A DNA stretch of 64,000 nt, taken from the NCBI RefSeq assembly GCF_021295395.1, contig NZ_JAIWOU010000002.1, forward strand, positions 1-64,000. Direction: 5' to 3'. This document shows, one piece after another, positions 11,517 to 57,527 of the stretch. The notes under the pieces are model-generated. The model was not told the DNA's origin. It ran no database searches and saw only the letters and a list, made by a program, of their open reading frames with translations. This DNA comes from Komagataeibacter sp. FNDCR2. GTDB lineage: Bacteria; Pseudomonadota; Alphaproteobacteria; Acetobacterales; Acetobacteraceae. The stretch's first letter is position 1, and each line of letters opens with the position of its first letter. Both the position numbers and the translations under genes were made by a program.

Positions 11517-13184
11517 TCAGTTGGTCATACCAACGTAGGCATTTCCCTCAGGTTGGATGACATCGCTGTTCAGGTCCAGGCATGCCGCGGATCCCCCAAT
11601 ACTTCCATCATTCCCGCGCTGTAATGACCAGATCAGTCCACCGTTTGGTCCCGCACCGACTGGCATCACGCGGGTCGCGTTGGGAACGGAGTGGGGGTCG
11701 GCAGTCCCCTCCTCGAAAATGCTGGTGAGTGCGCACATCAGGTGCTCACCAAGGTCACCGTAATACTGTGTGCTAAGATAGTTCCCGGGACCTCGGTAGC
11801 CTCCCGGCGTCTGGGCGAGCAGATACCATGTCACGTGGGCGCTCGAGGATATCCGCTTCCAGACACCGTTCATACAGCTCAGGGTGGCACCGTCCCCGGT
11901 AGTTTCTTGCGCGATCATACCGTTGGGAGAACAGCCGCCACCCACTGCCGCAGCTCCGTTATCGGTTCCGAGCTTGACGTCATCGACCGTGGCTGAGCCG
12001 GCGGAGATGTCGGCGTTGGTTCCATCGGCATGATGAAAATACGTCGTGCCGGGAGTATTGATCCAGGTATTGTAGGCATCTCCACAAAACTGCGTGTTTC
12101 CTACCTGGAAACCACAGCCGGGATTTTCGACGATGAACTGGGTGCCAGCCGTCATCGATTGTGCAACGGAGCCCCGGCCTGCGTTGTCAAAAACAACATT
12201 TTTTGCTCCACCCTGCCCAAGAGCAAGCGAGCCTTCAAAGTAACCGTCCACGCTGTGAACTCCTCCAACCAGACCTGGAGGAAGACCAGCATCCGGTTCC
12301 ATCCCATTGGTGCCGATATTGAGGCTGAAGTGGCCTTGCGCAGCCTGCAGATCCGCAAGTTGTCCATTTGGATGCTGCATGTAGACCGCACCTGAGTCGG
12401 GTGCACGGACAGCGGCATCGGTGTCGTCGCCATAAATATAGGCACCACCTACCTTCACGCCGCCATATCCCCCGTTTGGGTTTCCGCCGGAAAAAATGCC
12501 TCGTGTTGCGTTCACGTCATTGGCCGCATTGATATTGTTGCCGTCCATGTTCAATGGAGCGTTCATGGTCTGGAATTCGGGATGTCCCTGCACCTGATCG
12601 CGATAGAGATAATCGGCGTTCATGACTGGCGCATTGGAATACTGGAGTAGGCCGACAAGATGCCCTGGGCCGGGGTTGGGTATCGAAGTCAGGGGCAGGC
12701 TCCAGCTCCTGCTGGCACCGGTGGCCGTGGATGAGTTCAGGTTCCCGAACATGCCGTCATAGGGCACGAAGCCGCCCTGCTCTCCGGTGCCTGAGGCAAT
12801 ACGGACTTCGTCCACCCCGCTGATTGTCGTACCGCCCTGCGTTTCAACGACGACCGAGAGTGTGCCCTGTGTCGGCTGCAACAGATAGACGACCCATGTC
12901 TGGCCAAAGGGATTCATGGTCGTGAAACCGGGAAGAAGGTCGCTGTCGCTTACAAGCGTGGACAGCGGCAGGGTAACCGGAGCGCCGTTGACGGGAACCG
13001 AGCCGAAGAGGGACTCGCTATGCTTGTCGGTGTATTTCTGTCCCGCTTCCAAAAGGGAGCGGAATTGCCCGGACGTCGTCGCGTCTGTACTCAGGCTTGT
13101 GTTCTGCACTACCATGGACTGGAAATGGGGCAGGATCATCATGCCCACGATCGCCGCGATGATGGCGCCAGCTATATTTTCCAT
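11517..13184 (-). CDS. pilV: PilV-like minor pilin / pilus tip adhesin
   Basis: 555 residues from ATG 13184 (MENIAGAIIAAIVGMMILPHF), which overlaps the pilM stop. One N-terminal hydrophobic helix of pilin type is followed by a long Gly/Asn/Thr-rich body containing DQVQGHPEFQTMNAPLNMDG and NNINAANDVNA, typical of IncI PilV, and a distal lectin-like part with CSPNGMIAQETTGDGATLSC. R64 PilV C-termini are switched by a shufflon to select recipients. Here I find neither an rci recombinase nor alternative C-terminal segments, so a single fixed adhesin is expected. No conventional prepilin leader with a glycine cleavage site is visible. Confidence 0.82.
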   Translation of the reverse strand: MENIAGAIIAAIVGMMILPHFQSMVVQNTSLSTDATTSGQFRSLLEAGQKYTDKHSESLFGSVPVNGAPVTLPLSTLVSDSDLLPGFTTMNPFGQTWVVYLLQPTQGTLSVVVETQGGTTISGVDEVRIASGTGEQGGFVPYDGMFGNLNSSTATGASRSWSLPLTSIPNPGPGHLVGLLQYSNAPVMNADYLYRDQVQGHPEFQTMNAPLNMDGNNINAANDVNATRGIFSGGNPNGGYGGVKVGGAYIYGDDTDAAVRAPDSGAVYMQHPNGQLADLQAAQGHFSLNIGTNGMEPDAGLPPGLVGGVHSVDGYFEGSLALGQGGAKNVVFDNAGRGSVAQSMTAGTQFIVENPGCGFQVGNTQFCGDAYNTWINTPGTTYFHHADGTNADISAGSATVDDVKLGTDNGAAAVGGGCSPNGMIAQETTGDGATLSCMNGVWKRISSSAHVTWYLLAQTPGGYRGPGNYLSTQYYGDLGEHLMCALTSIFEEGTADPHSVPNATRVMPVGAGPNGGLIWSLQRGNDGSIGGSAACLDLNSDVIQPEGNAYVGMTN

Positions 13185-13657
13185 CAGAACCCTGACCCGG
13201 TGAAGGAAACACACGAAACGATATCGTCCTGTGGCACGACGACCGGAAGTGAGCCCATGTTTCCATATGTGGGTGTTTCCCAGGTTGTACCTCGGGAAAT
13301 ACCGATGCTCTGGTCGCCAGCCGCAAGGCGACGTATGCTGTCAATCGAGATCCCGGACAGGGCCATCCAAGTGACGACCTGCGTTGTTCCGCCATTGCGC
13401 GTGACGAGATTGTCCGCCGCCGCGAGGCCCGCCCCGTTCTGGGGCAGGCCAAGCTGCGCAAGGGGAACCGAGCCTGTGAAACCGGGATTGCGCTCGACAT
13501 AAAGCTGCACGGCGGCCTTGTACGCGAGCCAGGCTAGCGCGGCAGGGTCGGCCACAATGTCACGCACCGGATGTATCTGCCGGTTGCTGACCCCGAGCCC
13601 CTGCGCGAGGCTCCCGACGAGAAGCAGAACCGCAAAGGCCAGGGTCAAAAAGGGCAT
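13184..13657 (-). CDS. pilM: PilM-like type IVb pilus protein
   Basis: A 157-residue protein with an N-terminal hydrophobic anchor (MPFLTLAFAVLLLVGSLAQG) and the motif AVQLYVERNPGFTGSVPLAQLGLP, which matches the IncI PilM family. R64 PilM is a small membrane-associated protein needed for thin pilus formation; its exact role is unclear. ATG 13657 has AGGAG eight bases upstream. The gene lies between pilS and pilV rather than after pilL as in R64, so the order is rearranged. Confidence 0.75.
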   Translation of the reverse strand: MPFLTLAFAVLLLVGSLAQGLGVSNRQIHPVRDIVADPAALAWLAYKAAVQLYVERNPGFTGSVPLAQLGLPQNGAGLAAADNLVTRNGGTTQVVTWMALSGISIDSIRRLAAGDQSIGISRGTTWETPTYGNMGSLPVVVPQDDIVSCVSFTGSGF

Positions 13658-29285: not shown

Positions 29286-29303
29286 CGGTTGTGGGTGCGG
29301 ATC
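29286..29303 (-). promoter_or_regulatory. Copy C of the repeated conjugation-cluster element
   Basis: Sense-strand GATCCGCACCCACAACCG, 16 contiguous bases identical to copies A and D. It overlaps the dotG stop and lies 35 bases before the dotF ATG. The following GGTGCG could pair with its CGCACC to make a larger stem. Confidence 0.5.
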
Positions 29304-30651
29304 AGGGCGCATAGACAGGCTCGTCGAAGAGTACGCCGACCTCGTCACCCTGTTTGAGCTTGACCGTGGCCTGCTGCGCGGTCTGCTTCTGGAGCACCTG
29401 CGAGAGCTGCTCTCCCATCCGCCCGGAGGCGGCACCCATCTGCTGGGCAAGATTGAGATGGGTGAACGAGGTCATCCCGTATCCGCCGGTGTAGGACGTC
29501 GTGTTCGCGCTCATCATTGCGTTGCCGAGCCCCTCAACGAAGGCCGCTGCCGTTGGCAGGATGATGCGGGTGGCGAGATGCTCGTCCACTTCGGACGCGA
29601 CACCGGTTTCGGCGGTTTTGGGGGATACGGCGTAAGCCGAGACCGCAATGGGGTCTGTATCGCCAATCATCAGGCGGTCAAGCTTGATGACGAGCCGGTC
29701 GTTCTTCATCTGGAACGCGCCGCTGATACGCGCCTTGGGGAATGGACCTGAATCTATCTCGACAAGCACCTGGTCACCCAGATCGCTGTTCGAGGTGATG
29801 ACCGAATGGCCATAGACACCCCGGCCTGCGGCAAGCATGGGTTTCTGTCCCGCGTGTGATGACTGGCTGGCGCTTCCTGCAGGTGACGTCTGTGCCCCAC
29901 TGTCATTCGTATTTTCGGCGCTTCGGCCAAAGGCATCGGCCCGGACTATCGTGGAAGCGGTCGAACTGGCGATGCTGTTACCGCGGCGGGTGGAAGGACG
30001 GCTGTCATCATCCGGGAGCATCATTTCAAGCTGGGAGCCATGTCCGGACCACGCGGCGATCAGCTCGGCCTGCGCTGCAAGGCTGATTGCGGGCTCTTCG
30101 TGCGACGTATTCGCGTGAAGCGTCTTCGCGGCTGGCGTCGCGGATGTTGCAGGAGCGTTGCTGAACGGATCATTCACCTGTGATGGTGGCGGTTTGGGTG
30201 CCGGTTGCACTTCCCGAGCGGAAGGCTTCGAGCCGGAAGGGGGGGGTGTGACGGGCGCCGGTGGCTTTTTGTTCTGTGCCTCGTCCGTAGGTTTCGTAGT
30301 TCCTGGCGGGTCTCCCAGTTCGGCTATGTGGTGTTCCCTCGGGAGGTCGCGGCCGGAAAGGGCGGGCGTATAGGACTGGTTCTTTCGCGCAGCGTCTTCG
30401 GCGTTTTTCTTTTCCTGCTGGCTGGTGATGTCATCGAGACGTGGCGACTGGTTGTTGCCACCCGCGGGTGCCGTGAGGGCGGGTGTCTTCACGCTTGCGG
30501 AGTGCGGTGTATCCTGCCTGCCGACATGAAACACGAAGTACAGGACTGCGAGACCGATCGCGAACAGCACGACGACATAGGCGGCAACGCGCCGTGTATC
30601 GTCAAGGCTTGCGCGCAGCCTGGTCCTGGGAGGTTCTGGCTGTGCGTTCAC
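29302..30651 (-). CDS. dotG: DotG/IcmE (TraO) VirB10-like channel protein
   Basis: 449 residues, close to IncI TraO and much shorter than Legionella DotG, which has a long repeat region. A membrane span near residues 22-42 (VAAYVVVLFAIGLAVLYFV) precedes a Pro-rich stalk and a C-terminal VirB10-like barrel (GDQVLVEIDSGPFPKARISG ... GDEVGVLFDEPVYAP). It spans both membranes and forms the channel core with DotH and DotF. GTG 30651 overlaps the dotH stop. Confidence 0.9.
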   Translation of the reverse strand: MNAQPEPPRTRLRASLDDTRRVAAYVVVLFAIGLAVLYFVFHVGRQDTPHSASVKTPALTAPAGGNNQSPRLDDITSQQEKKNAEDAARKNQSYTPALSGRDLPREHHIAELGDPPGTTKPTDEAQNKKPPAPVTPPPSGSKPSAREVQPAPKPPPSQVNDPFSNAPATSATPAAKTLHANTSHEEPAISLAAQAELIAAWSGHGSQLEMMLPDDDSRPSTRRGNSIASSTASTIVRADAFGRSAENTNDSGAQTSPAGSASQSSHAGQKPMLAAGRGVYGHSVITSNSDLGDQVLVEIDSGPFPKARISGAFQMKNDRLVIKLDRLMIGDTDPIAVSAYAVSPKTAETGVASEVDEHLATRIILPTAAAFVEGLGNAMMSANTTSYTGGYGMTSFTHLNLAQQMGAASGRMGEQLSQVLQKQTAQQATVKLKQGDEVGVLFDEPVYAP

Positions 30652-31583
30652 GGGCCATCCTTCGCGAGATGGAGAGGAAAGGGTGGCGTTCCGGCACCAT
30701 TGTTTACGAGGACTTCAGGCGTTTCTGGAATTTCGAAGACCGTGAAGCCATACTGCGCTTCATGCCCCGTAGGCCCGGGGGAAACGACTTCGTAATTCGT
30801 TCGTAGATACATGTGGTGACCGTACTGCCAGGCGCGTATGCGGTCCGGGTCTCCACCTGAAACCAGAAGCGGTACTGCTTCGGCCGGTGGTGTGCCGTCG
30901 AGCATGGCGTTGAAAAACGAGGAGCCTGTGGCCGGTATGTCCGGCCCTGCACTTGGCCTGTCATGTGCGTTTGGACCGCGCGCGGCTATGCGGGCGGTAA
31001 GATCGGCGTCATATGAGCCGGTTCCTGCCACGATCATGAAACTGATGGGTTTTGGCGCACCCTTGAGACTGACGAGCACACCGCCATGGGCGTAGCGTGT
31101 AACCGGCGTGAGCTGCAGCACATTCGAACCCGGCTCCGGCACACAGGCATTGATGCCGACCGGGCGTACGGCGGTATTATGCCCCGCCCCGTCCTGATCA
31201 CAGCCGCCGTTCTTGTTGCTGGCGATGTCCCATGCAATTGGCCACGGCTGACCCGTCTCATCAAGAAATGTGATGGATGCCGGATAATCCTGTGCGATCC
31301 GCACGATATTGATCTGTGCGCCAGCCGCCATGGCGACCGTTACGGAGCGCGAAACCGGCACCACGATCCGGTGCGGGTCATCGGCCCCGTCAAGCGCCCG
31401 CTGGCCCGCGTCAAAGCGGTTATAGAGCCTGCCCATCGCGTCGGGAGGCGGCGGCAGGCTGCCCGCATAGACGGGATCGGCATGCTCGGACCTGTCATCA
31501 TGATTGAGGGACTGGGCGTACATGGCCGGGAATGGGGCTGAGGCAAGCATCAGACCCAGTAATACCGTGCGTGATGAGACCAT
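30648..31583 (-). CDS. dotH: DotH/IcmK (TraN) outer-membrane channel protein
   Basis: A 311-residue exported protein with a signal sequence ending near residue 23 (FPAMYAQS). Family blocks include the N-terminal RSVTVAMAAGAQINIVRIAQ, then YPASITFLDETGQPWPIAWD, NVLQLTPVTRYAHGGVLVSL, and DADLTARIAARGPNAHD. DotH is the main outer-membrane ring subunit with DotC and DotD. ATG 31583 directly follows the dotI stop without a gap. Confidence 0.9.
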   Translation of the reverse strand: MVSSRTVLLGLMLASAPFPAMYAQSLNHDDRSEHADPVYAGSLPPPPDAMGRLYNRFDAGQRALDGADDPHRIVVPVSRSVTVAMAAGAQINIVRIAQDYPASITFLDETGQPWPIAWDIASNKNGGCDQDGAGHNTAVRPVGINACVPEPGSNVLQLTPVTRYAHGGVLVSLKGAPKPISFMIVAGTGSYDADLTARIAARGPNAHDRPSAGPDIPATGSSFFNAMLDGTPPAEAVPLLVSGGDPDRIRAWQYGHHMYLRTNYEVVSPGPTGHEAQYGFTVFEIPETPEVLVNNGAGTPPFPLHLAKDGP

Positions 31584-32231
31584 TCAGTCACCGCCATCAC
31601 TGGCACGAGGTGCGTTCAGCTCCGCAATGACCAGCCCATCGGGATGAAGGGGATCATTCGTCCGGCGAATTATGACGTTGACCGCAAGCAGGTCGGTCTT
31701 GGAGCCGCTGCCGTTCTCCCATTTGAGGTACATGGGAAAATAGACATGCCATTCATAGTCCCCGCGCGGTGTAATTCCTTCCCATCTGACCGAGCCTGCG
31801 GATTTGAGGGATGCCGTCAGCATGACCCTCCTGCTCTTGATAAACTCGATATTCCCTGGCTTCTTGAAGGCATCGAGCCATGTATTCCATGCCGGGGTGG
31901 TGAAGTATTGGGCATAGGATGAAAGTTGCTGCGCGTATTGCAAGAAATTGATCGTATAAAGGCCGGTTACCTTCTCGACGCTCCAGTTCGTAACCTGAGC
32001 GTCCGTGAAATACGGCTGATCGGTAACGATCAGCTCACGCGGCTTTCCGAACGGGTCGTGATAGATGTGCTTCACGCGGGGTGGATGCGTGATTGCCACG
32101 AAAAGGGAAATCGCCAGACCGACGTTGACGATCATGCTGACAATAAGGGTAAGCGTCAGCCGCCCCATCATCAGTTGCCCGAATGTCGGATCAAGAAGAC
32201 GTCGTGTAATCGCCTGACTGCTATTGCGCAT
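31584..32231 (-). CDS. dotI: DotI/IcmL (TraM) inner-membrane protein
   Basis: 215 residues from ATG 32231 (MRNSSQAITRRLLDP), three bases after the regulator stop. One membrane span (TLTLIVSMIVNVGLAISLFVA) is followed by the periplasmic DotI domain: the block PYFTDAQVTNWSVEKVTGLY, then the VMLTASLKSAGSVRWEG segment and a C-terminal VNVIIRRTND. It resembles VirB8 in role and sits in the inner-membrane ring. Confidence 0.9.
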   Translation of the reverse strand: MRNSSQAITRRLLDPTFGQLMMGRLTLTLIVSMIVNVGLAISLFVAITHPPRVKHIYHDPFGKPRELIVTDQPYFTDAQVTNWSVEKVTGLYTINFLQYAQQLSSYAQYFTTPAWNTWLDAFKKPGNIEFIKSRRVMLTASLKSAGSVRWEGITPRGDYEWHVYFPMYLKWENGSGSKTDLLAVNVIIRRTNDPLHPDGLVIAELNAPRASDGGD

Positions 32232-32233
32232 GT

Positions 32234-32998
32234 TCAGGCAAATCCGGCTGCGTATGTGGCAAGACGCCTGCGTCCGAGCAGGCTGCAATGCACGGTTTTC
32301 TGGTCGCGTGGCGAGACGAAGAAGATCCGGCTGGTGACACGGCAGATTTTCTTGACCATCTGACCTGCCACCGTGCTGTTTTCGGGAACGGCGAACGGAT
32401 CGTCAGACGGGCAGCTCGTGCGCAGCGTGAGGCCGGTCCTGGCGGGAAGGCCTGCGCGACGCGCGGCCTCGCCGACGGTCTTGACCGTCAGGCCAAGAAT
32501 TCTGGCAATGAAGGCAGGGCTGTAGAGGCGTTTCCAGAGTTCGGCGAGATGTGAGACAGCCCGGTCATCCCAGATCGCGCGGCCGGATTGGTTGCGCGAG
32601 ACCAATCCGGAAAAGTCAAGTTTATTTAAATAAGTATTTGATTTTGTGATTGAAATGTGCGGGGGGGGGGGGGGCGCCATGAGCAAGGCGGCGCCAGCCG
32701 CCCGACCGCGTAGCGGTCGACGTACGCCAAGGCGTATAGCCTTGGCGCGTACGGCCTGGATGGTACGCCCCGTGACGCGCGCGATAAATTTCACCGCGAC
32801 CTGCGTCGGGTACCTTAACATAACGTACCGCTCTTCATCCGCGCTCCAGCGCGGTGTCCGGCCGACCTGTCCATTTTCGGGGAACCTGCCGTCCGTCCCC
32901 GTTCGCACCGTAGGGGCGGGGGAGCCGATAAATACAGGAGTTAAATAGTCCTGATAAAAACGGGAAAATGCGCTTCCTGTTATTAGTGAAGACCGCAC
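32234..32998 (-). CDS. Putative two-domain DNA-binding regulator with an internal C14 tract
   Basis: 254 residues from GTG 32998; AGGAGG six bases upstream decides this over a TTG at 33019. Residues about 50-90 (RWSADEERYVMLRYPTQVAV, then ARVTGRTIQAVRAKAIRLGV) form one Myb/GcrA-like helix-turn-helix. A second one (residues about 140-185) is AIWDDRAVSHLAELWKRLYS, then FIARILGLTVKTVGEAARRA. Between them lies MAPPPPP, encoded by 14 consecutive C residues. It is the first gene of the conjugation block and abuts dotI, so autoregulation or control of the tra-pil genes is plausible. The family is not identified further. Confidence 0.6.
   Translation of the reverse strand: MRSSLITGSAFSRFYQDYLTPVFIGSPAPTVRTGTDGRFPENGQVGRTPRWSADEERYVMLRYPTQVAVKFIARVTGRTIQAVRAKAIRLGVRRPLRGRAAGAALLMAPPPPPHISITKSNTYLNKLDFSGLVSRNQSGRAIWDDRAVSHLAELWKRLYSPAFIARILGLTVKTVGEAARRAGLPARTGLTLRTSCPSDDPFAVPENSTVAGQMVKKICRVTSRIFFVSPRDQKTVHCSLLGRRRLATYAAGFA
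32661..32674. repeat. 14-nt homopolymer (G on plus strand, C in the coding strand)
   Basis: An uninterrupted run of 14 G inside the regulator gene. A gain or loss of one or two bases would change frame between its two DNA-binding segments. A run of this length in a GC-rich genome is either a slippage-prone switch or a place where the sequence read length is uncertain. Confidence 0.95.
32703..32753. repeat. Two adjacent hairpins beside the homopolymer
   Basis: CGACCGC-gta-GCGGTCG (32703-32719) is a perfect 7-bp stem. CGTACGCCAAGG (32721-32732) pairs with CCTTGGCGCGTACG (32740-32753) apart from a two-base bulge. Both lie in the coding sequence of the regulator, within 80 bases of the 14-G run. 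Confidence 0.8.
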
Positions 32999-33312
32999 AA
33001 GAACCCTCCTGACCTGCAATCAGTATTGAATATATTTGTTACATTACACCGTGAATGGCAGCTTTGCACGCATAATCAACCTGCCTCCCGATATTTCTAA
33101 GTAATGTGCCCCTACTGAAGGATGTAGGTATATTCACGATTACGGCTTCGGAATACCCCACGTCGTACCTGCCATGTACTTTCCGCATGGGTGCAACACG
33201 CACTTTCTGTCCGGATATATTCGCGTCGCCTCCGGTGACGATCTCCGCCTCATGTCCGCACCCACAACCGCCAGACCTATCCTCATGATGATAACATCTG
33301 TCGGAGCCAGTC
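32999..33312. promoter_or_regulatory. Divergent intergenic region between the two conjugation operons
   Basis: About 310 bases separating the minus-strand regulator-dot-pil block from the plus-strand dotA operon. It should contain both promoters. A minus frame of 91 codons (33039-33314) spans it but lacks family features and I do not call it. The first 90 bases are relatively AT-rich (AATCAGTATTGAATATATTTG), which suits a promoter for the minus operon. Copy D of the repeated element is at 33253-33270. Confidence 0.5.
33253..33270 (+). promoter_or_regulatory. Copy D of the repeated conjugation-cluster element
   Basis: TGTCCGCACCCACAACCG on the plus strand, identical in all 18 bases to copy A, 42 bases before the first small gene of the dotA operon. 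Confidence 0.5.
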
Positions 33313-33477
33313 ATGGAAGATCAGGAAGGTCGTGTTGTCACGGATCGTATGCCGCAATGGCTGGACGCCGCGCGCGCCCGGTCGGTTCTCGGGCGTGGAT
33401 GGTATGGCGAAGGAACGGCCAAAGATAACGGTGCCGGCGACCAGCCCCAACCCATGGCGCAGGGAGCGGCTACGTGA
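33313..33477 (+). CDS. Small protein of 54 residues leading the dotA operon
   Basis: ATG 33313 opens a frame (MEDQEGRVVTDRMPQWLDAA...) ending at TGA 33475-33477, which overlaps the GTG start of the next gene (GTGA). It is hydrophilic, with no membrane span and no recognised family. The only support is the tight coupling and the position just after copy D, so it may be a real small protein or a coupling leader. Confidence 0.45.
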   Translation: MEDQEGRVVTDRMPQWLDAARARSVLGRGWYGEGTAKDNGAGDQPQPMAQGAAT

Positions 33478-34025
33478 GACGTACCTTATATGCCTGCGTG
33501 ATGGTGACGGCCTGCCTCGGATATGACGCCAGTGCGGTCGCCGCGAGTTCCCAGGGGTGCGAGGCGCTGATCCAGTCCGCCGCGACGGGAATGGCAGCCC
33601 AGATGGGTGCCGATGATGCCACCATCAAGCAGCCCCAGTCCGTCACGAAGTTCACCTGTCTGGGTAATTTCTTCAGTGGCGTCGGGCTCGACATTCTGTT
33701 GAACGGAATCAATATCGCCGCGATCGCACAGGCCGCCATGGGGAAAATCTGCGCTGAACTCACCTCTACCTGGGAAAACATGGAAGGGATGGCCCAGTGC
33801 GGTCTGACCGTGACCGGCCTCGATACCAATTTCAATCTCGGACTTGGCGCCGGATCATTCTGCCCCTCGCTGAATTTCGGAGGCGGCGGTGACGCGCTGA
33901 TCAGCGCGTCCACGAACACCAATGGCAACAGTTCGTGGGACGTCACCGGAGATACCCAGTTGCCTGACGGCTACACGCTTCAACTCATGGGGGAAAGCAC
34001 CGGCATTTCCACGTTGACCCAATGA
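33474..34025 (+). CDS. Secreted protein of the dotA operon, unknown
   Basis: 183 residues from GTG 33474. Signal peptide about MRRTLYACVMVTACLGYDASAVAA. The mature part has five cysteines (SQGCEAL, FTCLGN, KICAEL, AQCGLT, SFCPSL) and Gly/Asn/Thr-rich, beta-prone C-terminal sequence. A central hydrophobic stretch (GVGLDILLNGINIAAIAQAAMG) is present. It might be a periplasmic channel component or a surface subunit. IncI plasmids have traV-traW-traX before traY (dotA), so it may take one of those places, but I cannot show homology. Confidence 0.65.
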   Translation: MRRTLYACVMVTACLGYDASAVAASSQGCEALIQSAATGMAAQMGADDATIKQPQSVTKFTCLGNFFSGVGLDILLNGINIAAIAQAAMGKICAELTSTWENMEGMAQCGLTVTGLDTNFNLGLGAGSFCPSLNFGGGGDALISASTNTNGNSSWDVTGDTQLPDGYTLQLMGESTGISTLTQ

Positions 34026-35203
34026 CGGGCCGCACATCATGGCGGGTCCGGGTGATCGTCATCGTCATTGTGTCGTTCATGGCGGGCAGCATGGCCGCGC
34101 CCCGTCCGGCCTACGCACTTTTCGGGCTCGATGTCGCGCCAATCGTCGCCGCGATCACCACCATGCAGGGAGCCATGAACACGGTCATCACAACCACCCG
34201 GACGGTACTCAACTCGACGCTCGGGTTGATCAACGGCTCGCTTGGCAGCGGCTTTACCCAAATTACCAACTACCTCAAGGCGCAGGTTGGCGCGCAGGAG
34301 CAGATCGCGGATGCGAACAACATGGTGCAGGCCCGCCTGGCCCGTGACGTGCGTAATGCGGTCATTCGTGACAACCACGCCGTAAACCGGCAGGACTGCC
34401 TCAACCTTGAAGGGGGCCAGTCGACGGTTGTGGCTGCGCATAACGCGGAGGAAGTCGCCGCAACGCTCGACAGCGCGAAGGACAGCCGCACCCGTGCCGC
34501 CCGCGGCACACCCTCATGGGCTGGTGGTGGTCAGGGCTCCCAGGCGAATAACAATCATCATTTTGCGAAGTACTGCGACGATGCCGAAGCCGAGGCCGGG
34601 ATCTGTTCCCTCGCGACCAGTGACCTTAAGGGAGCCGACCAGAGCGCGTCCAGCCTCCTGACGCCTCCCGTCTATGCCGACCCGGCCGCGATCGACAAGG
34701 CCAACGATTTCGAGATGACGCTGATCCAGCCGGTAGCATCCGCGGCACTCCGCGGCAGCGCGCTGACGACAACCGGGGGGCAACAGGCCCTGCCCGGACG
34801 CCGCTCCTACAGTGCGGCAATCTCGCTGGCGCACAAGATTGGTGACGATGTGCTGAGTTGGCATGCCGGAACCGTCACCCTTTCCGCGGCCCAGAAAGCC
34901 GAAGCCCAGCGCGAAGGGATAACGCAGACCGATACGGGTAGCCAGTTCGAGGCTACGGAGCTGGAGGTCAACCGGAAATACTCGGGCACCGACTGGCAGG
35001 CAGACCTTCAGGCCATGCCGAGCGACAAATCGGTACTCGTCCAGATCGCCCTATTGGATGCGCAACGCAACTGGCTGCTCTGGCAGCAGCTCAAGCTGGA
35101 CCAGAGCCGTGCCCTGGCCGAGGCCGCGCGCCTCTCCATTGCGGCGGAACAGCGCAGGCCCGGGATTTCCCCGATGCCCGTCCCATCAATTTCCAGCAAC
35201 TGA
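34022..35203 (+). CDS. Exported protein of the dotA operon (TraW-like by position)
   Basis: 393 residues; the ATG overlaps the previous stop (ATGA). A signal or anchor sequence (VIVIVIVSFMAGSMAAPRPAYA) precedes a long helical domain (about 30-110; TTMQGAMNTVITTTRTVLNS and MVQARLARDVRNAVIRD), cysteines in RQDCLNL, KYCDD and GICSLA, and a helical C-terminus (VLVQIALLDAQRNWLLWQQL). The helical periplasmic layout recalls VirB5-like or P-type TrbJ proteins. Length is near IncI TraW. Assigned by context only. Confidence 0.6.
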   Translation: MTGRTSWRVRVIVIVIVSFMAGSMAAPRPAYALFGLDVAPIVAAITTMQGAMNTVITTTRTVLNSTLGLINGSLGSGFTQITNYLKAQVGAQEQIADANNMVQARLARDVRNAVIRDNHAVNRQDCLNLEGGQSTVVAAHNAEEVAATLDSAKDSRTRAARGTPSWAGGGQGSQANNNHHFAKYCDDAEAEAGICSLATSDLKGADQSASSLLTPPVYADPAAIDKANDFEMTLIQPVASAALRGSALTTTGGQQALPGRRSYSAAISLAHKIGDDVLSWHAGTVTLSAAQKAEAQREGITQTDTGSQFEATELEVNRKYSGTDWQADLQAMPSDKSVLVQIALLDAQRNWLLWQQLKLDQSRALAEAARLSIAAEQRRPGISPMPVPSISSN

Positions 35204-35210
35204 GGAATAA

Positions 35211-36785
35211 ATGTCGGATACCGTGACACAGCAGAGTTTCATAGGGACGGCCCTGGCCGGTCTGGACGCGCAGCAGCGCGCTATTCCGGAAAGCGAGCGC
35301 GGCCTCGCAAAAGACCTTGAAGACCTCCAGAAACGCCTTGCCGAAAACCCGGCCCTGGAGAACGATCCACGATTCTGCACGCAGGTCGCGTGGCTCATGC
35401 AGGACTGGCAGAAATTCAGCGGGACGGGTCAGGCCCCGGCTGTCTCGCCAATCCTTACGGCAGGTATGGCGCAGCTTGCATCCACCTATCCGGGGCTCGA
35501 AAATCCGCAGGTCAGGTCCGCCCTGGAACAGACGGGAGGGCTGCATGACCGGCAACTGGTTGCCGATATCCGGTCGGTGGCAATGGAAACCGCCAGGATG
35601 ACGCCCGAACAGCAGACCTCGTTCATGGCGCGCATGGCGGCCGACCATCTTGTGCAGCGGGTCCAGGCCGCGCTTGGGCAGCCCGCAATGGCACATGAAG
35701 CCGCTCCGTACCCCGTCCCGCCGGAAACCACACCTGAGCCGGTGGTTGAGCCGCCGCAACAGATGCGTCCGACCCCGGCGGCGGCTCCGGAACCGGAGCC
35801 ATCTTCAGCAGACCCGTTTCCGCCGGAAGCGGGTGACCCGGGCTTTGCCCCGTCTTCCACAGAGGCCGCAGCTGCACAGGCTCCCGGCCCGGAACCCGAA
35901 GGGCCGATTGCACCACAGGAAACCCGCGATGAGCCGATACAAGGCGACGGGAACGAGGTGCCGCATACCAAGGGAAGCGCGGCTCAGGCGTCTGATCAAG
36001 GGGCGGAGAACCGCACCCGTGCCGAGGATGCCGACAATTCCCGCGAGAGGGAGAATAGTGACTCGCCTCCAAATCATGCACCGCAGAAAGAAGCCAAAGA
36101 CCCTCGGCCCACGACCCCGCAAAAAAGTCCTGATCAAGCACAGCCCCAATCTGCGCCCGCGCCACAGAACAAGCCGCAACAGGCGCCCGCTACGGTTCCC
36201 TCACCGGTCTCTGGCGTGAAGGAATGGGCAAATAACTTCATGGGCAAAAAAGACGAGCGTCGCGTCAACAAATTCGTCAACCGCACCGCCGAAGCCGTGG
36301 AGGCCGTGCGGGACAAGATTGGGAACCTGCGCCGGGAAGAACCCGCCTTCTTTGAAAGCATTGACGCCGCGGCCCGGAAAAGCGGTCAGCCGGTGCGCGA
36401 GGTGATCGCGGGCATGACGTCCGACGGCCCCTACGCCAACCTGCGCAAGCAATATGATGCGATCGTCCAGCGCAATCCGAACTTTATGGCGGCCAGCCGG
36501 GAACTCATGCAGGCGGGGACCAACCTGCGAACCACTGTCAGGCGGCTGGAGACCGAAGCACGCGAGCGTGGGGCATCGGACAAGGAGCCGGTCACCGAGG
36601 TCTTGCGGAGTGTCGGGGGCGTGGGTCTCGAACTCGAAAAAATCCCTGGAGAATATCCGGGAAAAAACTTTCTCCAGCAGGTGGGGGCGATGGTCGAGCG
36701 ACTGGCGAACAAGTTTCGTGAATTCTTCGAGCATACCTTTGGCCAGCGGCGCGAACGCGACAGCGGTCCGTCCATGGAGCGCTGA
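35211..36785 (+). CDS. Large cytoplasmic protein with a proline-rich linker, unknown
   Basis: 524 residues from ATG 35211 (GAGGAA upstream). There are no membrane spans or signal. A helical N-domain (1-160) and a helical C-domain (about 340-500; KEWANNFMGKKDERRVNKFV ... LMQAGTNLRTTVRRLETEAR) are joined by about 180 residues rich in Pro, Glu, Ala and Gln. It lies between the TraW-like gene and dotA with short gaps. It could be a transported substrate or a cytoplasmic accessory of the transfer machine; neither can be shown from sequence. Confidence 0.6.
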   Translation: MSDTVTQQSFIGTALAGLDAQQRAIPESERGLAKDLEDLQKRLAENPALENDPRFCTQVAWLMQDWQKFSGTGQAPAVSPILTAGMAQLASTYPGLENPQVRSALEQTGGLHDRQLVADIRSVAMETARMTPEQQTSFMARMAADHLVQRVQAALGQPAMAHEAAPYPVPPETTPEPVVEPPQQMRPTPAAAPEPEPSSADPFPPEAGDPGFAPSSTEAAAAQAPGPEPEGPIAPQETRDEPIQGDGNEVPHTKGSAAQASDQGAENRTRAEDADNSRERENSDSPPNHAPQKEAKDPRPTTPQKSPDQAQPQSAPAPQNKPQQAPATVPSPVSGVKEWANNFMGKKDERRVNKFVNRTAEAVEAVRDKIGNLRREEPAFFESIDAAARKSGQPVREVIAGMTSDGPYANLRKQYDAIVQRNPNFMAASRELMQAGTNLRTTVRRLETEARERGASDKEPVTEVLRSVGGVGLELEKIPGEYPGKNFLQQVGAMVERLANKFREFFEHTFGQRRERDSGPSMER

Positions 36786-36788
36786 CCA

Positions 36789-39125
36789 ATGATCCACACG
36801 CGCCTGCGTCCGGTCGGACTGTGCGTGCCGGCCACGTTCCTGCTCGTGACGGGATGCATGTTCCTGTCAGGGGTCGCTCACGCCGACACGACGGCATCCA
36901 ACGTGACATGGAGCGACCTTGCCGCCGGGGATGACTGGACCGGGCGTGTGCTGGACAGCATTTTTCCGATGAGCGGCTCCACACAGACCGCGACGGGAAC
37001 GATGCTCTCGTATTTCTCCGCCTACGTCATGCTGATCGTCGCGGCATGGATCTCGTATGCCACCGTCATCCAGATCCACCGCACCGCCGAGAGTGGCAAG
37101 ATATTTTCGGCCAGCTTCAACGGATGGGTCCCGGTGCGTGTGGCAATGGCCCTCATCATGATGAGCCCTGTCACCGCCCTTGGCGGATTTTCCACCGGGC
37201 AGGACATGATTCTGGTGCTCTCCAAATCCGCCATAGGCATGGCGAGAAACCTGCAGAACATCACGATAAACGCTGTTGGTCCCGATGCCCTGCCTCTGGC
37301 GGAACCCATGGCGCCCTCTACCCGTGAAATCATCTTCAGCGTGATGGCGAGTGAGCTCTGTCGCGCCATCGTCAACAAGGCATCGAACAACGGTGATCTG
37401 ATCCCTGCGCCCGAAGTCCAGAATAATGGCGCGGGAAAGATCACTCTCTCCTATGATCTGGCGGCGAACGAGCATACGGCTGCCGCGCCCTGTGGGAGCA
37501 TTGTCCTACAACTGCCAACTTCCAACGCCGGAATATCGTCTTCGGCCCTGGCACCTTATGTTGACCTGTCCGACCTCGCGCCGCAAGAGCAGCAGGCGCT
37601 GAAAGACCTTGTCAGCAAACTGCGTGACCCCATACAGGCGTTGGCTGCAACGTTGTGGGTAACCCGAAATGTCTCGACCCTCAGGTCGCTTGACGCCCTG
37701 CTGATCGTGAATGCGCAGTCCTATTCCGATGCGCTGTACACAATCGCGTCGAGCGCGGTGTCCACCATACGCAAGGCCGCCAGCGACCAGGGCGCCGATT
37801 CTGGGGTCACGGCCCTGCATAATCTCGGCTGGAGCGGGTTGGGGGCGTATTATCTGGAAATTGCAGGCCTGAACTCCGAGATCCTTGCTTTTTCATCTCT
37901 CAAGCCGGCCATCATCGCGCCGTCATGGACAGGATTGGGCTGGTTTCTCTCTGATGACGTCGATCCGTTTGCACGGGCCATCGGCGATTACCTCGCCCAG
38001 CAGGAAGACAATATCATCACTGCGGACCAGGCCAGCGCGCCCTACGGCGCCACGCGCATGTTCTCCCGGGGGCGGATCGGCAGTACGCCGGGCTCACTGC
38101 TGACACAGATCACCCGCGCGGTTGGCATCAACGAGGATATCTTTACGCTCATCGTGAATGAAATGGTCGCGCCTAGTTCGGGCGTGGATAGCAGTCATCC
38201 TGTTAGCGGTGGCGGACCCGGCTGGACCGACCCCCTCGCGGGCATGATTACGCTGGGACACCTGCTGATCCATATTGCCCTGACCATCATTGGCGTGGTC
38301 GCCATCGGCTCCAGTAAGACCGCATCCGCCGCGTCTGCCGTGGCCGGGGTCATGACACTCGATCCCGCACAGGTGGCCGCCAGTGCATCGGCCGTCGTTT
38401 TCAGCGGCGCGATCAGCGCGCTCCTGACCCCGATTTTCGCAGGGGCCTTCATGCTGCTGGTACCTGGCATCACCCTGGCCTACATCCTGCCGATGACCCC
38501 ATATCTGTACTGGATTGCAGGCGTAGCCGGCTGGCTGATCCTTGTGATCGAGGCGGTCATAGCTGTTCCATTATGGATGCTGGCCCATATGGTGTTCGAG
38601 GGAGAGGGCCTGCATGGCAGGGGCATCCGGGGATACGAGGTGCTGTTCACCATCATCTTCCGGCCCTCCATGATGGTGATTGGCCTGATCCTGAGCTACA
38701 CGATCTTCTCCGCGATGTCATGGCTCCTGATGAAAAGCTTCTCGATTGCGGTCGGCTTCGTCTTCGCGCAGGGTGACCTGGTGGACAATTTCATCGCCAT
38801 CGTGGTGATGCTCGCCATGTATGTCACCACGGAGATGACGTTTGCAGTCATGTCTTTTCGGCTGATTTCCACCCTGCCGCATCATCTGCCGGCCATGGCG
38901 GGAATGAACGCGATGAGCCGTGTTGATAGCGACAGCTTCTCAGATAGCGCGACGCAGCCTCTGAGGCCACATCTGGAAAAAGGTGTGAGTTTGGCGCAGA
39001 GTAGTATCAGTCGATCTCCCGGGACCGGAAACGATGCGCCTGACCCTGCCAGCACGTCAGGCACGAAAGGCCTGGATTCAACAACGCAGTCCCATCTCAT
39101 GGTTTCAGGTCGTGAGGAAGGTTAG
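36789..39125 (+). CDS. dotA: DotA/TraY polytopic inner-membrane protein
   Basis: 778 residues with a signal sequence (to about residue 32, SGVAHA), a first membrane span (SYFSAYVMLIVAAWISYATV), the DotA block FSASFNGWVPVRVAMALIMM, a large periplasmic domain, and C-terminal spans (ILIHIALTIIGVVAI-like, ISALLTPIFAGAFMLLVPGI, YLYWIAGVAGWLILVIEAV, MVIGLILSYTIFSAMSWLL). The late motif WMLAHMVFEGEGLHGRG is typical of DotA/TraY. It is required for channel assembly and DNA transfer in IncI systems. Confidence 0.9.
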   Translation: MIHTRLRPVGLCVPATFLLVTGCMFLSGVAHADTTASNVTWSDLAAGDDWTGRVLDSIFPMSGSTQTATGTMLSYFSAYVMLIVAAWISYATVIQIHRTAESGKIFSASFNGWVPVRVAMALIMMSPVTALGGFSTGQDMILVLSKSAIGMARNLQNITINAVGPDALPLAEPMAPSTREIIFSVMASELCRAIVNKASNNGDLIPAPEVQNNGAGKITLSYDLAANEHTAAAPCGSIVLQLPTSNAGISSSALAPYVDLSDLAPQEQQALKDLVSKLRDPIQALAATLWVTRNVSTLRSLDALLIVNAQSYSDALYTIASSAVSTIRKAASDQGADSGVTALHNLGWSGLGAYYLEIAGLNSEILAFSSLKPAIIAPSWTGLGWFLSDDVDPFARAIGDYLAQQEDNIITADQASAPYGATRMFSRGRIGSTPGSLLTQITRAVGINEDIFTLIVNEMVAPSSGVDSSHPVSGGGPGWTDPLAGMITLGHLLIHIALTIIGVVAIGSSKTASAASAVAGVMTLDPAQVAASASAVVFSGAISALLTPIFAGAFMLLVPGITLAYILPMTPYLYWIAGVAGWLILVIEAVIAVPLWMLAHMVFEGEGLHGRGIRGYEVLFTIIFRPSMMVIGLILSYTIFSAMSWLLMKSFSIAVGFVFAQGDLVDNFIAIVVMLAMYVTTEMTFAVMSFRLISTLPHHLPAMAGMNAMSRVDSDSFSDSATQPLRPHLEKGVSLAQSSISRSPGTGNDAPDPASTSGTKGLDSTTQSHLMVSGREEG

Positions 39126-52597: not shown

Positions 52598-55500
52598 TTA
52601 ATGAAAGTCCCGTGACTGAATGGAAATCCTCTTTTTGGATTGACCCACCGTTGCCAGCAACGGTGTCAGGTCATCCAGCGACCGGACGACAACATGGATG
52701 ACTTCCCCTTCTTTCTGGAGGGTTCCATGGCAGGCGATCATGCCGGCTGACAGCACGATGCGGCGTTGCCGCTCAATCCGGTCAGGCCAGAGGATCAGGT
52801 TGGCCATGCCGGTTTCGTCCTCAATGGTGAGGAACATGGTCCCGTTTGCCGTGCCCGGGCGCTGGCGCATGATGACGACGCCCGCAATGGTGATGCGCCG
52901 CCTGTCAGCCAGGGCCTGCAGTTCGCCACAGCGTGTGATTCCACGATAGTCCAGTTCTTCACGCAGGAATGCGACAGGATGATCGCGTAGCGTAAGGCCC
53001 GCCGCGTGATAGTCCTCGACCACATTCTGCCCTTCCGTCATGCCCGGGAGCGTGAAAACGGGTTCGACAATCTCTGGCTCCGGGCGGTTACGGTGCTGGT
53101 CGGCTGCGGCGAAAAGCGGCATCGGGCTATCCGCCAGACCCTTTATGTCCCATAGCGCCCCCCGTCGGTCGCGGCCCAGCGCTTGAAATGCATCGGCTTC
53201 GGCCAGCGCCTGCAGGGCGCGCTGCTCGAGCCCGGCCCGACGCCATACGTCATCCAGGCTTTCATAGGCCGAGGACCGGCACGCCACCAGTTTCGCCGCT
53301 TCGTGGTTGGATAATCCCTTCACCAGCCGCAATCCCAGCCGTACGGCTAGAAACCGCCCTGATCCCGCCTTCTCAAGCGTACAGTCCCACCGACTGGCGT
53401 TGACGCAGATCGGACGGACCGGGACACCGTGCCGTCGTGCATCGCTGACAATCTGTGCCGGCGCGTAAAATCCCATTGGCTGGGAATTGAGCAGGGCTGC
53501 GCAGAAGACGTCCGGATGGTGGCATTTGATGTAGGACGAGGCGTAGGCGATCAGGGCAAAGCTTGCTGCATGGCTTTCAGGGAACCCGTAGGAGCCAAAC
53601 CCCTCCAGCTGCGCGAATGTGCGCTCGGCAAATGCGAGGTCATAGCCCCGCTCTGTCATGCCGTTGATCAGACGGTCCCGGAAATAGGTGACCGTTCCCT
53701 CTCCCTTGAATGTGCCCATGGCACGGCGTAGCTGGTCGGCTTCGCCGGGCGAGAAGCCAGCGCAGTGAATAGCGACCTGCATGGCCTGTTCCTGGAACAG
53801 CGGTACGCCCAGCGTCTTGCCAAGGATGCGCTCCAGCGCAGGGGAAGGGCAGTCCGGTTTCTGCTTCCCCTCACGTCGCAGCAGGTAGGGATGCACCATG
53901 TCGCCCTGTATGGGACCGGGGCGGACAATCGCCACCTGCACCACGAGATCATAGAATGTGTGCGGTTTCAGTCGCGGCAGCATGCTCATCTGCGCGCGGC
54001 TCTCGATCTGGAATGTACCGATCGTGTCCGCCCGGGCGATCATCCGGTACGTGGCCGGGTCCTCGGCCGGGATGGAAGCCATGTCCATGCGTGTCCCGCG
54101 CGCGGTTTCAAGCAGGCCGAAGGCACGACGCATGCAGCCCAGCATGCCCAGCCCCAGCACATCGACCTTCATGAAACGCAGGTGGTCGATGTCATCCTTG
54201 TCCCAGACGATGATCTGGCGGTCCTCCATCGCGGCGGGCTCGATGGGCACAAGGTCGTCCAGCCGGTCGCGGGTCAGCACGAAGCCTCCCGGATGGGTGC
54301 CAAGCTGGCGGGGAAAGCCGATCAGTTGCCCCGCGAGATGCAACGTCAGGCGCAGGCGCGGGTCATCAAGGTTCAGACCCAGTTCCCGCGCCCGGTCCGA
54401 AAGCGTATCGCCGTCTGCAGACAGACCGGTCAGATGACGCGAGAGGGCGGCCGTGACATCCTCTGGCACGCCCAGCGCCTTGCCCACGTCGCGCAGCGCG
54501 CCCTTGCGGCGATAGCGCATCACCGTCGCGCACAGCGCCGCCCGGTCCCGTCCGTAATGGGCGTAGATCCACTGGATCACCTCCTCGCGCCGCTCACTCT
54601 CGAAGTCCACGTCAATGTCCGGTGGCTCCTTCCGCTCCGCCGAGACAAACCGCTCGAACAGGAGGCCGGAACGGACCGGATCAATAGCGGTGATGCCCAG
54701 CACGTAGCAGACGGCGGAATTGGCGGCGGACCCGCGCCCCTGGCAGACGATACCCTGCTGGCGGGCATGCCGCACGATCGTGTTGACCGTCAGGAAATAC
54801 GGTGCGTAATCCAGTGATGCGATCAGGTCGAGTTCGTGGCGGAGCTGGGCCAGCACGCTGTCCGGTGCGCCTGCAGGATAGCGATCTTTCAGATGCGTCC
54901 GGACAAGGGCCGCAAGGGCTTCCTGTGGCGTTTTCCCTGATGCGTCGGTTTCATCCGGATACTGGTAACTCAGGTTATCAAGCGAGAAGCGGCACAGCCC
55001 GGCGATTTCGGCGCTACGTGCAATCGCGGCCTCATGGCCCGCATAGTGCTGGCGGATCTCGCGTTCAGCCATCAGGTGACGGCCCGAGCAGGTTTCGCGC
55101 CGGTCTCCCAACCGGTCGATCGTGCAGCCATGGCGGATGCAGCCCAGCACATCCTGAAGGATATGCCGTTCGGCGCTGTGAAATAGAACGTCGCCCGTGA
55201 CGACCGTCCGCAGGCCGACCTTCGTCGTCAGTTCTTCGATCGCGGCAAGGCGCGTGGCATCTCCCGGCCGGAAGCGCCGGACAAGTGCGACATACCCGGG
55301 CAGGCCGGTCTCGTGGCTACGTCGTGCCATGCGGGCCAGGACTTCGACAGGGGGAACTTCCAGCACATCCGGCAACAGGACCAGGAGAAGCCCCGCACCT
55401 TCCCGCTCCATATCCCGCCATGTCAGGGAAAAGCCACCCTTCCCTGCCCGTTTCTTGCCCAGCGTCAGGAGACGGCACAGACGGCCATAGGCCGTCCGGT

Positions 55501-55744
55501 CGGTGGGATAGGCGAGGACGGGCGGCATATCCTCCAGATCCAGACGGCAGCCGACGACAGGGCGGACCCCATGTTCGCCAGCCGCCCGGTGCGCCCGCAC
55601 GATCCCGGCAAGGCTGTTATGGTCGGTGACGCCGATCGCGGGAAGTCCCAGCGCCTTCGCCGTGGCGAACAGTTCATCAGGATGGCTTGCGCCCCGCAGG
55701 AAGGAATAATTCGTCGCGACCTGGAGCGGGACATACCCGGCCAT
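52598..55744 (-). CDS. dnaE2: Error-prone DNA polymerase DnaE2 (ImuC)
   Basis: 1048 residues, the usual DnaE2 length. N-terminal PHP domain ([31 protein letters not shown]), polymerase core with the [20 protein letters not shown] acidic motif and the [17 protein letters not shown] palm motif, helix-hairpin-helix region, and a C-terminal OB fold ([20 protein letters not shown]). It performs mutagenic translesion synthesis with ImuA and ImuB. ATG 55744 follows the 81-residue gene by three bases. Confidence 0.95.
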
Positions 55745-55747
55745 CGC

Positions 55748-55993
55748 CTATCCCGGCTCCGCATGGGGATGATGATGTGCACTGGTGCTGGGCGCGGGAG
55801 CGCCTGTGCGACGCAGGATGACGTAGCCGCAGGCCTGCAGATAGGCCACGAGGCGTTCCGCCGTAATGCGGGCCATCATTTCATCCGCCGTATGAACCTT
55901 GCGCCGGCCATCGTAGCGCAGGCCATGTGACAGGGAGGCTTCGATTTCCTCCAGACTGGCCGGACGCAGATCGGGGGGAGTGTCCTCTATCAT
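55748..55993 (-). CDS. Small protein between imuB and dnaE2
   Basis: 81 residues from ATG 55993 (MIEDTPPDLRPASLEEIEAS), which lies just after the imuB stop; the longer frame is inside imuB. Core: GLRYDGRRKVHTADEMMARI, then ITAERLVAYLQACGYVILRR. I recall similar small unnamed genes near imu cassettes of acetic acid bacteria but cannot name a family. Co-transcription with imuB and dnaE2 suggests a DNA-damage role. Confidence 0.6.
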   Translation of the reverse strand: MIEDTPPDLRPASLEEIEASLSHGLRYDGRRKVHTADEMMARITAERLVAYLQACGYVILRRTGAPAPSTSAHHHPHAEPG

Positions 55994-56003
55994 TGCGCGC
56001 TCC

Positions 56004-57527
56004 TCAGAAAAGACCATGCAGGAACCACGGCGCGGCAGAATCAGGCGTCCCCGGGCCGCGGACGGACTGGAATAGCCAGAACTGGAGGCCACCCCTTTCT
56101 GCCGCAATCCAGTAGTTCCGGATGTTTCCGTATTCGCCAGCGTCGCGCCACCATTCACCGTGCACGCGCTCGGGGCCATCGCATGCAACAAGCCCATAGG
56201 CATGGCCGCGCCATGCCATCTCCCCCGGCACGCCAGCCGCGTCCTGACGGATCATGATGACGGGCTCGGGCGGGCTGAACAGGCGCACGGGGCGCGGCCA
56301 CGGGCATGTCCAGTCAGAGGTCATCATATCGGGCCTGGCGGGAACCGTGGCCTGAGTGCGTTCGGGCATATGGCTTTCGATCCGGGTGAAGCGCACCAGT
56401 CCTGAATCAAGGGCTGCGCTGTTTCCAAGTCGATCAAGCAGGTCCGCGTCGGTTGCCGTGGGGGCGGACAGCTCCGTGGCCATGCCCGTCAACTGACGGG
56501 TGCTGCGTCGCTCGGACTGCCTTACCACGAGGCTCATCGCTTCAATGCCGAAGCCGGGTTCGATCGTCTCGATCCGTGCCCGCAGAAGGCGTCCCATATG
56601 GTCCGCATCGCACACAGGAGAGGCCGTACCGACCCGGACCGCCTGCACACCGCCATCCACGCGTTCGCACAGCAGGTCGAGCTGTCTCGCACCCTCCCCA
56701 CGTTGCCGCAGTGCCGTACACACGGCGCCAACCAGCACCCTGATGACGGTCGCGATGGCTTCCGCCGTGGAGATGGGTTCCACAAACGAACGGCGGTCCT
56801 GTATCATGTCCCGAGGCAGAACAGGCCGGATCGGTTCGGGCATCAGGCCCAGCGCCTGATCCAGACGGTGAATGAGGTTCTTCCCGAACCGCCGCGCAAG
56901 CGGTGCGCGGGGCGCCTCGCGCAACTGCCTGACCTGCCCCAGACCAAGCTGGAGAAGCCCTCGCCGGGTGGCGGCATCCAGACGCAGGGCCGCGACAGGC
57001 AGGGGGTCGAGCGCGGTTTTATGCTGCTGTTCCGGGACGACCGTCGCCATGTCCGTTCCGAAACGCGCGACCGCCCATGCGCAGCCCGGCGTATCCGCCA
57101 TGGCGCCACGTACCGTAAGCCCCATGGCAGACAGACGTGCAAGCAGGGCGGTGAGCATGGATGTTTCACCGCCATGCAGGTGCGCGCAGCCCGTGGCGTC
57201 AATCCAGATGCCATCAGGATCGGCAGCGGATGTCAGGGGCGCCGACCACAGACACCATTCGGCCAGTCGTGACAGGGCGCTGGCGTCGCCTTCCGGATCG
57301 GCAGGCGCCACGCTCAGGTCCGGCACAAGGGCCTGCGCCTGTGCCAGGGGCAGGCCGGGGCTGATCCCTGCGGCCACCGCAGCTTGGTCAACGGCCGAGA
57401 TCATGTCGCGTCGGCCATCATGGCTGCGCGTGACCAGCGGGCGGGATGCTGGAAGATCGTGGAAACCATGTCGACGCAACCGGTCGGTCGGCCAATGGGG
57501 AAACCACAGAGAGATGATGCGGCGCAT
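56004..57527 (-). CDS. imuB: ImuB, Y-family polymerase-like accessory protein
   Basis: 507 residues from ATG 57527 (MRRIISLWFPHWPTDRL); it overlaps imuA by 110 bases. Y-family palm and fingers fold, but the N-terminal acidic motif of active polymerases is replaced (ISLWFPHW), as is usual for ImuB, which acts as the clamp-binding hub for DnaE2. Later blocks DPLPVAALRLDAATRRGLLQ and GLGQVRQLREAPRAPLARRF form the little-finger/HhH region. Confidence 0.9.
   Translation of the reverse strand: MRRIISLWFPHWPTDRLRRHGFHDLPASRPLVTRSHDGRRDMISAVDQAAVAAGISPGLPLAQAQALVPDLSVAPADPEGDASALSRLAEWCLWSAPLTSAADPDGIWIDATGCAHLHGGETSMLTALLARLSAMGLTVRGAMADTPGCAWAVARFGTDMATVVPEQQHKTALDPLPVAALRLDAATRRGLLQLGLGQVRQLREAPRAPLARRFGKNLIHRLDQALGLMPEPIRPVLPRDMIQDRRSFVEPISTAEAIATVIRVLVGAVCTALRQRGEGARQLDLLCERVDGGVQAVRVGTASPVCDADHMGRLLRARIETIEPGFGIEAMSLVVRQSERRSTRQLTGMATELSAPTATDADLLDRLGNSAALDSGLVRFTRIESHMPERTQATVPARPDMMTSDWTCPWPRPVRLFSPPEPVIMIRQDAAGVPGEMAWRGHAYGLVACDGPERVHGEWWRDAGEYGNIRNYWIAAERGGLQFWLFQSVRGPGTPDSAAPWFLHGLF

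Follow-up and report, generated by a model that had tools for sequence, protein, structure and literature searches.

A homopolymeric C tract in the leading gene of a plasmid conjugation operon of acetic acid bacteria as a likely phase-variation locus

An uninterrupted run of 14 C in the first gene of a plasmid-borne dotI-dotH-dotG operon of Komagataeibacter likely constitutes a slipped-strand contingency locus, that is, a site of phase variation. The window, i.e. the whole stretch of 64,000 nucleotides that was analysed, represents positions 1-64000 of a replicon of 118,126 bp (contig C2); the coordinates of the features, collected in Table 1, are those of the window. The tract, the reading frames around it, its differences between relatives, the selection that acts on either half of the gene, the gene order and the stop/start junctions are shown below.

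The run is read as 14 G on the + strand (32661-32674) and as 14 C within an ORF on the - strand that spans 33019-32234, is open from a TTG at 33019 and reads the tract as 32674-32661. The tract encodes the proline run of the motif MAPPPPPH, which is located between two helix-turn-helix (HTH)-like segments. No other homopolymer of the window exceeds 8 nucleotides, the length of the runner-up. The whole 3.29-Mb genome contains four C or G runs of at least 10 (two of exactly 10 and two of 14) and only two of at least 11, namely the C14 tract and an intergenic run of 14 G; under a Markov model, about 0.002 C or G runs of at least 14 would be expected in 64 kb, and about 0.1 in the whole genome. 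The intergenic run (G000:C1:459642-459655) lies beside a terminator-like repeat. With 12, 13, 15 or 16 C, the regulator is computed to terminate 12-13 residues beyond the tract, and with 11 or 17 C the frame is kept as with 14. The initial annotation had proposed a regulator at 32234-32998 that heads a conjugation block and carries 14 C between two HTH-like segments, where a one-base slip would leave a one-domain protein. The bounds held, with a likely GTG start at 32998; the position of the tract held in sequence and alignment, and the effect of the slip in the computed frames. The place of the gene at the head of the block and the plasmid type were confirmed as well.

The likely start codon of the regulator is preceded at 6 nt by an AGGAGG motif (33010-33005). 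The profile PHROG 323 ('transcriptional regulator, D5-like') matches residues 53-192 with an E-value of 5e-7, a match that spans both HTH-like segments, and all four PHROG 323 members match the window protein (2.9e-12 for the best member). Both segments are weak against Pfam. The cut-off of the GcrA family (PF07750) is not reached, with a best E-value of 2.5e-5 among relatives and no match of the window protein. The AlphaFold model, which is of low confidence (mean pLDDT 43), displays three helices in each HTH-like segment. A PDB sequence search with the regulator revealed no significant match, and a Foldseek search with the low-confidence model nothing at E <= 0.001; the top, non-significant Foldseek matches are mostly HTH proteins, the first being the two-HTH paired domain of Pax. 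The protein probably regulates transcription of the transfer genes, a role inferred from HTH similarity only, its targets not being shown. Homologous single ORFs are found at the same locus position in A. vaccinii, G. oxydans and G. thailandicus.

The ATG of dotI (32231) lies 2 nt past the TGA of the regulator. At every junction read, the regulator stop and the dotI start overlap or are at most about 3 nt apart, and no Shine-Dalgarno sequence precedes dotI, in the window as elsewhere. Because the dotI start abuts the regulator stop in the absence of a Shine-Dalgarno sequence, translational coupling of dotI to the regulator is likely, as an inference from the junction sequence. The replicon also encodes RepC, a TrwB-type coupling protein, DotM, a TraI-like protein, PilO, a Shufflon_N protein and a TrwC relaxase. 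It thus meets the criterion for MPF_I / Dot-Icm-type systems, i.e. core T4BSS genes, a coupling protein and a relaxase on one replicon, and this gene content, with Dot genes, a coupling protein and a relaxase of the TrwC type, marks it as an MPF_I / Dot-Icm-type, MOBF conjugative plasmid of Komagataeibacter, self-transfer being inferred. Its closest named relative is K. melaceti AV382. The order regulator-dotI-dotH-dotG, together with the divergent block, is also found in the plasmids of A. vaccinii, G. oxydans 621H (pGOX1), G. thailandicus and A. orientalis.

Table 1. Coordinates of the features in and around the regulator gene
Feature	Position	Strand	Basis or remarks
Regulator ORF, 254 aa, tandem HTH-like	32234..32998	-	GTG 32998, stop 32236-32234; heads dotI-dotH-dotG operon
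Ribosome-binding site AGGAGG	33005..33010	-	sequence; 6 nt before GTG 32998
First HTH-like segment, W58-P102 of 261-aa ORF	~32714..32848	-	alignment; PHROG 323; low-confidence model
Palindrome 1, CGACCGC-TAC-GCGGTCG	32703..32719	-	one stem pair A-T, T-A or G-C among relatives
Palindrome 2, GGCGGC-TGGC-GCCGCC	32687..32702	-	stem invariant, loop variable in relatives
C14 tract, proposed slippage switch	32661..32674	-	sequence; in-frame lengths 14, also 11, 17
A+T-rich linker 3' of tract	32588..32660	-	first bases GCACA
Second HTH-like segment, S145-P192	~32444..32587	-	alignment; PHROG 323; low-confidence model; selection
dotI/icmL (traM-like)	31584..32231	-	Pfam PF11393, E=2e-53
dotH/icmK	30648..31583	-	PF12293, E=7.6e-58
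dotG/icmE/virB10-like	29302..30651	-	PF03743; relatives' copies annotated DotG
Divergent block, four ORFs, across regulator promoter region	33474..39125	+	ORFs; arrangement same in relatives

Several other features of the plasmid were noted. A PilV-like protein with a Shufflon_N domain is encoded at 11517-13214; no shufflon repeats of at least 18 bases were found near this gene, and a shufflon is apparently absent. Genes for a DNA polymerase III alpha (DnaE2-like) and an ImuB-like (IMS) protein at 52598-57701 form an apparent error-prone polymerase cassette. A methylase-helicase protein of 1699 aa (L055 11256-16355, G000:C2) possibly serves restriction or defence, and a 91-aa ORF between the regulator and the divergent block (33039-33314) matches no known family.

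A tract at the equivalent site is carried by at least 13 plasmids or contigs, the window counted, from five Acetobacteraceae genera (genome-collection labels g1, g55, g67, g79 and g109, of which g55 is Acetobacter, because genome G468 carries the A. vaccinii plasmid). For each complete tract, the in-frame length was computed from the frames of both HTH-like segments or, for G407, by hand from a three-frame translation (Table 2). Only the window allele, one of the eight assembled, is in frame; among the other seven, all off, five exceed an in-frame length by one base and two fall one base short of it (modulo 3), so that all three phases are seen. The off-frame alleles of relatives stop 3-71 codons past the tract, well ahead of dotI. 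In the finished plasmid pAOF1, the annotation presents the first half of the gene as a 354-bp 'endonuclease' and places no gene in the frame of the second half. The short-read assemblies of K. melaceti, G458, G432 and G266 end exactly at the tract, as would be expected from mixed lengths; in K. melaceti one contig finishes in 19 C and another opens with 13 C. Two further alleles deserve mention. The flanks in G339 read as if an IS110-like element had inserted in the tract and now lay between C16 and C7 (G339:C35, G339:C8), which would be another route to an off state. The C20 tract of G443:C13 lies beside damaged-looking palindromes that reflect either sequencing errors or real decay.

Table 2. 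Assembled tract alleles and the lengths that would place both HTH-like segments in one frame
Allele	Tract length	In-frame length
Window	14	14
A. orientalis pAOF1	15	14/17
G314	15	14/17
G465	15	13/16
G443	20	19/22
G448	14	13/16
G445	12	10/13
G407	11	10/13

Five relatives lack the tract, namely A. vaccinii (also found as G468), G. oxydans, G. thailandicus, G374 and G433, and in each of them the ORF is single and intact, and the linker differs or is shorter. The gene is in frame in all five tractless relatives versus one of the eight tract alleles (Fisher p = 0.005), and an expectation of one-third in frame is not rejected by the seven off alleles (p = 0.20). It is possible that the tractless, always-in-frame relatives represent locked-on alleles. 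The initial annotation had suggested a possible phase switch, which would be refuted if relatives encoded the linker without a homopolymer and without frame variation. That outcome was not obtained, since the 13 tract carriers, the window included, vary widely in tract length, cover all three phases and keep both halves under purifying selection; the tract is missing from five relatives, all in frame. The suggestion is supported, switching in culture and an effect on conjugation being inferred.

The identity of DotI between tract carriers is as low as 36-60%. Two changes of tract state are enough on the DotI tree, in which the tractless rows are nested among the carriers (several forks are weakly supported); the simplest reading is therefore an old tract that was lost at least twice. 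The bases GCACA follow the tract in most tract-bearing relatives, G266 and G407 excepted, and their presence in several carriers argues for common descent over repeated origin. No relative was found in the viral contigs searched.

In off alleles, purifying selection acts on both sides of the tract. A. orientalis and G465, both out of frame and in different off phases, differ in the C half by 61.5 synonymous and 27.5 non-synonymous changes (dS 1.27, dN 0.099, dN/dS 0.08) and in the N half by 15.5 and 9.5 (dS 0.41, dN 0.080, dN/dS 0.19); for G314 versus G339, the synonymous/non-synonymous counts are 6/3 and 7/3. This pattern is unlike that of broken genes and is what frequently restored genes would show. 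When the window is compared with K. melaceti, the region after the tract displays 27.5 synonymous against 2.5 non-synonymous changes if read in the expected frame, a relation that is reversed in the two other frames. The strongest purifying selection is found after the linker, in the second HTH-like segment (27 synonymous, 1 non-synonymous), and dN/dS of the Komagataeibacter C half is 0.025. Selection on the N half is weakly resolved in this pair (4 synonymous, 4 non-synonymous). The N half and the linker (32600-33100) are near-identical to K. melaceti (dS 0.04) and the C half is not (dS 0.32-0.38), a difference that might stem from mosaic exchange or from an extra constraint on the DNA.

The locus satisfies the criteria for a contingency locus that were applied: a homopolymer of at least about 8 nucleotides inside an ORF and rare in the genome; early termination upon a one-base change, in the window and in relatives; alleles that vary in length, frame-shifting lengths included (by between-species comparison only); and the selection on both sides described above.

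Two perfect palindromes are located 12 nt 5' of the tract. They are present in the tract carriers with an intact upstream flank, except G407, and absent from tractless relatives; in G448 both loops are altered and the stems are kept. Stem covariation is limited to one pair, with 12 of 500 shuffles as high, and the folding energy is no lower than that of random synonymous recodings. An RNA structure that acts as a frameshift signal is not claimed, as the folding energy is unremarkable despite the covarying pair, and a mobile palindrome element was rejected because the motif occurs only once in the window. As a speculation, the palindromes may help slippage by stalling replication.

In the proposed mechanism, the homopolymer would gain or lose C through slipped-strand mispairing during replication. 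Lengths equal to 14 modulo 3 would yield an intact ORF and hence a two-HTH DNA-binding protein, the probable regulator of the transfer genes, and other lengths would introduce a stop 12-13 codons past the tract (3-71 in relatives) and leave a one-HTH fragment. Ribosomes in the off frame would never reach the regulator stop that abuts the dotI start, and DotI is predicted to fall. DotH and DotG would fall too, by polarity; Rho-dependent polarity is expected on untranslated C-rich RNA such as off-frame alleles leave. As a net result, part of the population would switch assembly of the conjugation apparatus on or off, heritably but reversibly. Slippage, switching within a population, regulation, coupling and the effect on conjugation are all inferred.

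Of the rival explanations, programmed slippage survives best and is considered unlikely. RNA polymerase or the ribosome would slip on the C run and produce a fixed mix of one-HTH and two-HTH proteins, the genomic length mattering little. Long C runs are slippery for proline tRNAs, which favours this explanation, as do the selection on both halves of out-of-frame alleles and the same +1 shift that is needed by five of the seven off alleles. However, one kept phase would then be expected, whereas the frame relation is unfixed (phases 0, +1 and -1 in eight alleles, lengths 11-20), and the five tractless relatives simply have a fused ORF. The criterion for a programmed frameshift, a conserved frame relation between two ORFs, is thus not met among the eight alleles.

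Ordinary decay, in which the homopolymer arose by an accident of mutation and frameshifted pseudogenes make up most of the copies, is very unlikely. The excess of off alleles, seven of the eight assembled, could possibly hint at it, and the IS element in the G339 tract speaks for it. By contrast, dN/dS is 0.08-0.15 between off alleles of the Acetobacter plasmids, beside the low value for the Komagataeibacter C half, and the tract persists at one position over deep divergence without eroding, the DotI tree requiring only two changes with tractless relatives nested.

Sequencing or assembly error, with true lengths all in frame and the linker a stable oligoproline, is also very unlikely. Homopolymers longer than 10 nt are the commonest class of indel error, and assemblies break at the tract. 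For K. melaceti, a PCR library was read on a MiSeq and Velvet served as the assembler (PMC7465234), so that stutter is another possible cause of the break. Public assemblies may misstate the length of a homopolymer by one base or more; an error could flip the assigned phase of any single allele, and the 'on' state of the window is provisional. Nevertheless, the lengths in relatives differ by up to 9 nt, five relatives are without oligoproline, and the finished plasmid pAOF1 is also off, without an annotated full-length gene. A long tract at one site in five genera, with lengths of 11-20, is not explicable by error, and even with errors it remains a conserved, long, probably hypermutable homopolymer. 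The initial annotation had named error as the main alternative, which held in part: a one-base error is possible in each assembly, but cannot create a conserved long tract. Lastly, the chance joining of two separate genes is rejected by the single ORFs of the five tractless relatives.

Slipped-strand phase variation remains the preferred reading. A bolder version regards the tract as an ancestral slippage switch in a family of conjugative plasmids of acetic acid bacteria, with transfer made phase-variable via the regulator, the coupled dotI and the apparatus, with spread from a minority of on cells, and with some lineages locked on by loss of the tract; as a joint claim, this version may as well prove wrong as right. 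Conjugation carries a cost and makes cells vulnerable to pilus-specific phages, and plasmids are thought to restrict it to a minority of cells, usually via repressors or quorum signals. If the proposal is true, a switch that is driven by mutation and conserved on plasmids would offer another way to impose this restriction. It would also explain the broken look of many deposited copies, and isolates scored as non-transferring may only be in the off phase.

The locus resembles the homopolymer contingency loci of Neisseria, Campylobacter, Haemophilus and Helicobacter in its homopolymer within an ORF, early stops off frame, varied lengths and selection on both sides. Most of those loci lie on the chromosomes of host-associated bacteria, in surface, restriction or metabolic genes, whereas the C14 tract lies in a plasmid transfer-operon gene of acetic acid bacteria. 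The kind of mechanism is already known; its location in a plasmid-transfer regulator of acetic acid bacteria was not found described, and the literature searched, which was not exhaustive, yielded no account of a conjugation regulator with a homopolymer switch. In the same bacterial family, polE of Acetobacter tropicalis similarly shows frequent spontaneous loss of function, with a spontaneous mutation and a pellicle change (Deeraksa et al. 2005, as cited in PMC5553594), the mutation reportedly lying in a C homopolymer, but it is a chromosomal polysaccharide gene and not a transfer regulator. As to the protein, GcrA shares the tandem HTH segments, although the window protein falls under the cut-offs of GcrA and other Pfam HTH families; the D5-like regulators of PHROG 323 share the tandem HTH arrangement, and their profile matches the window protein across both segments. 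The plasmid corresponds to the MPF_I / Dot-Icm-like systems of IncI R64 and pGOX1 in DotI, DotH, DotG, DotM, the TraI-like protein, PilO, Shufflon_N, the coupling protein and the TrwC relaxase. In R64, the pilus tip is varied by a shufflon, whereas in the window plasmid the variable element is the homopolymer in the leading regulator.
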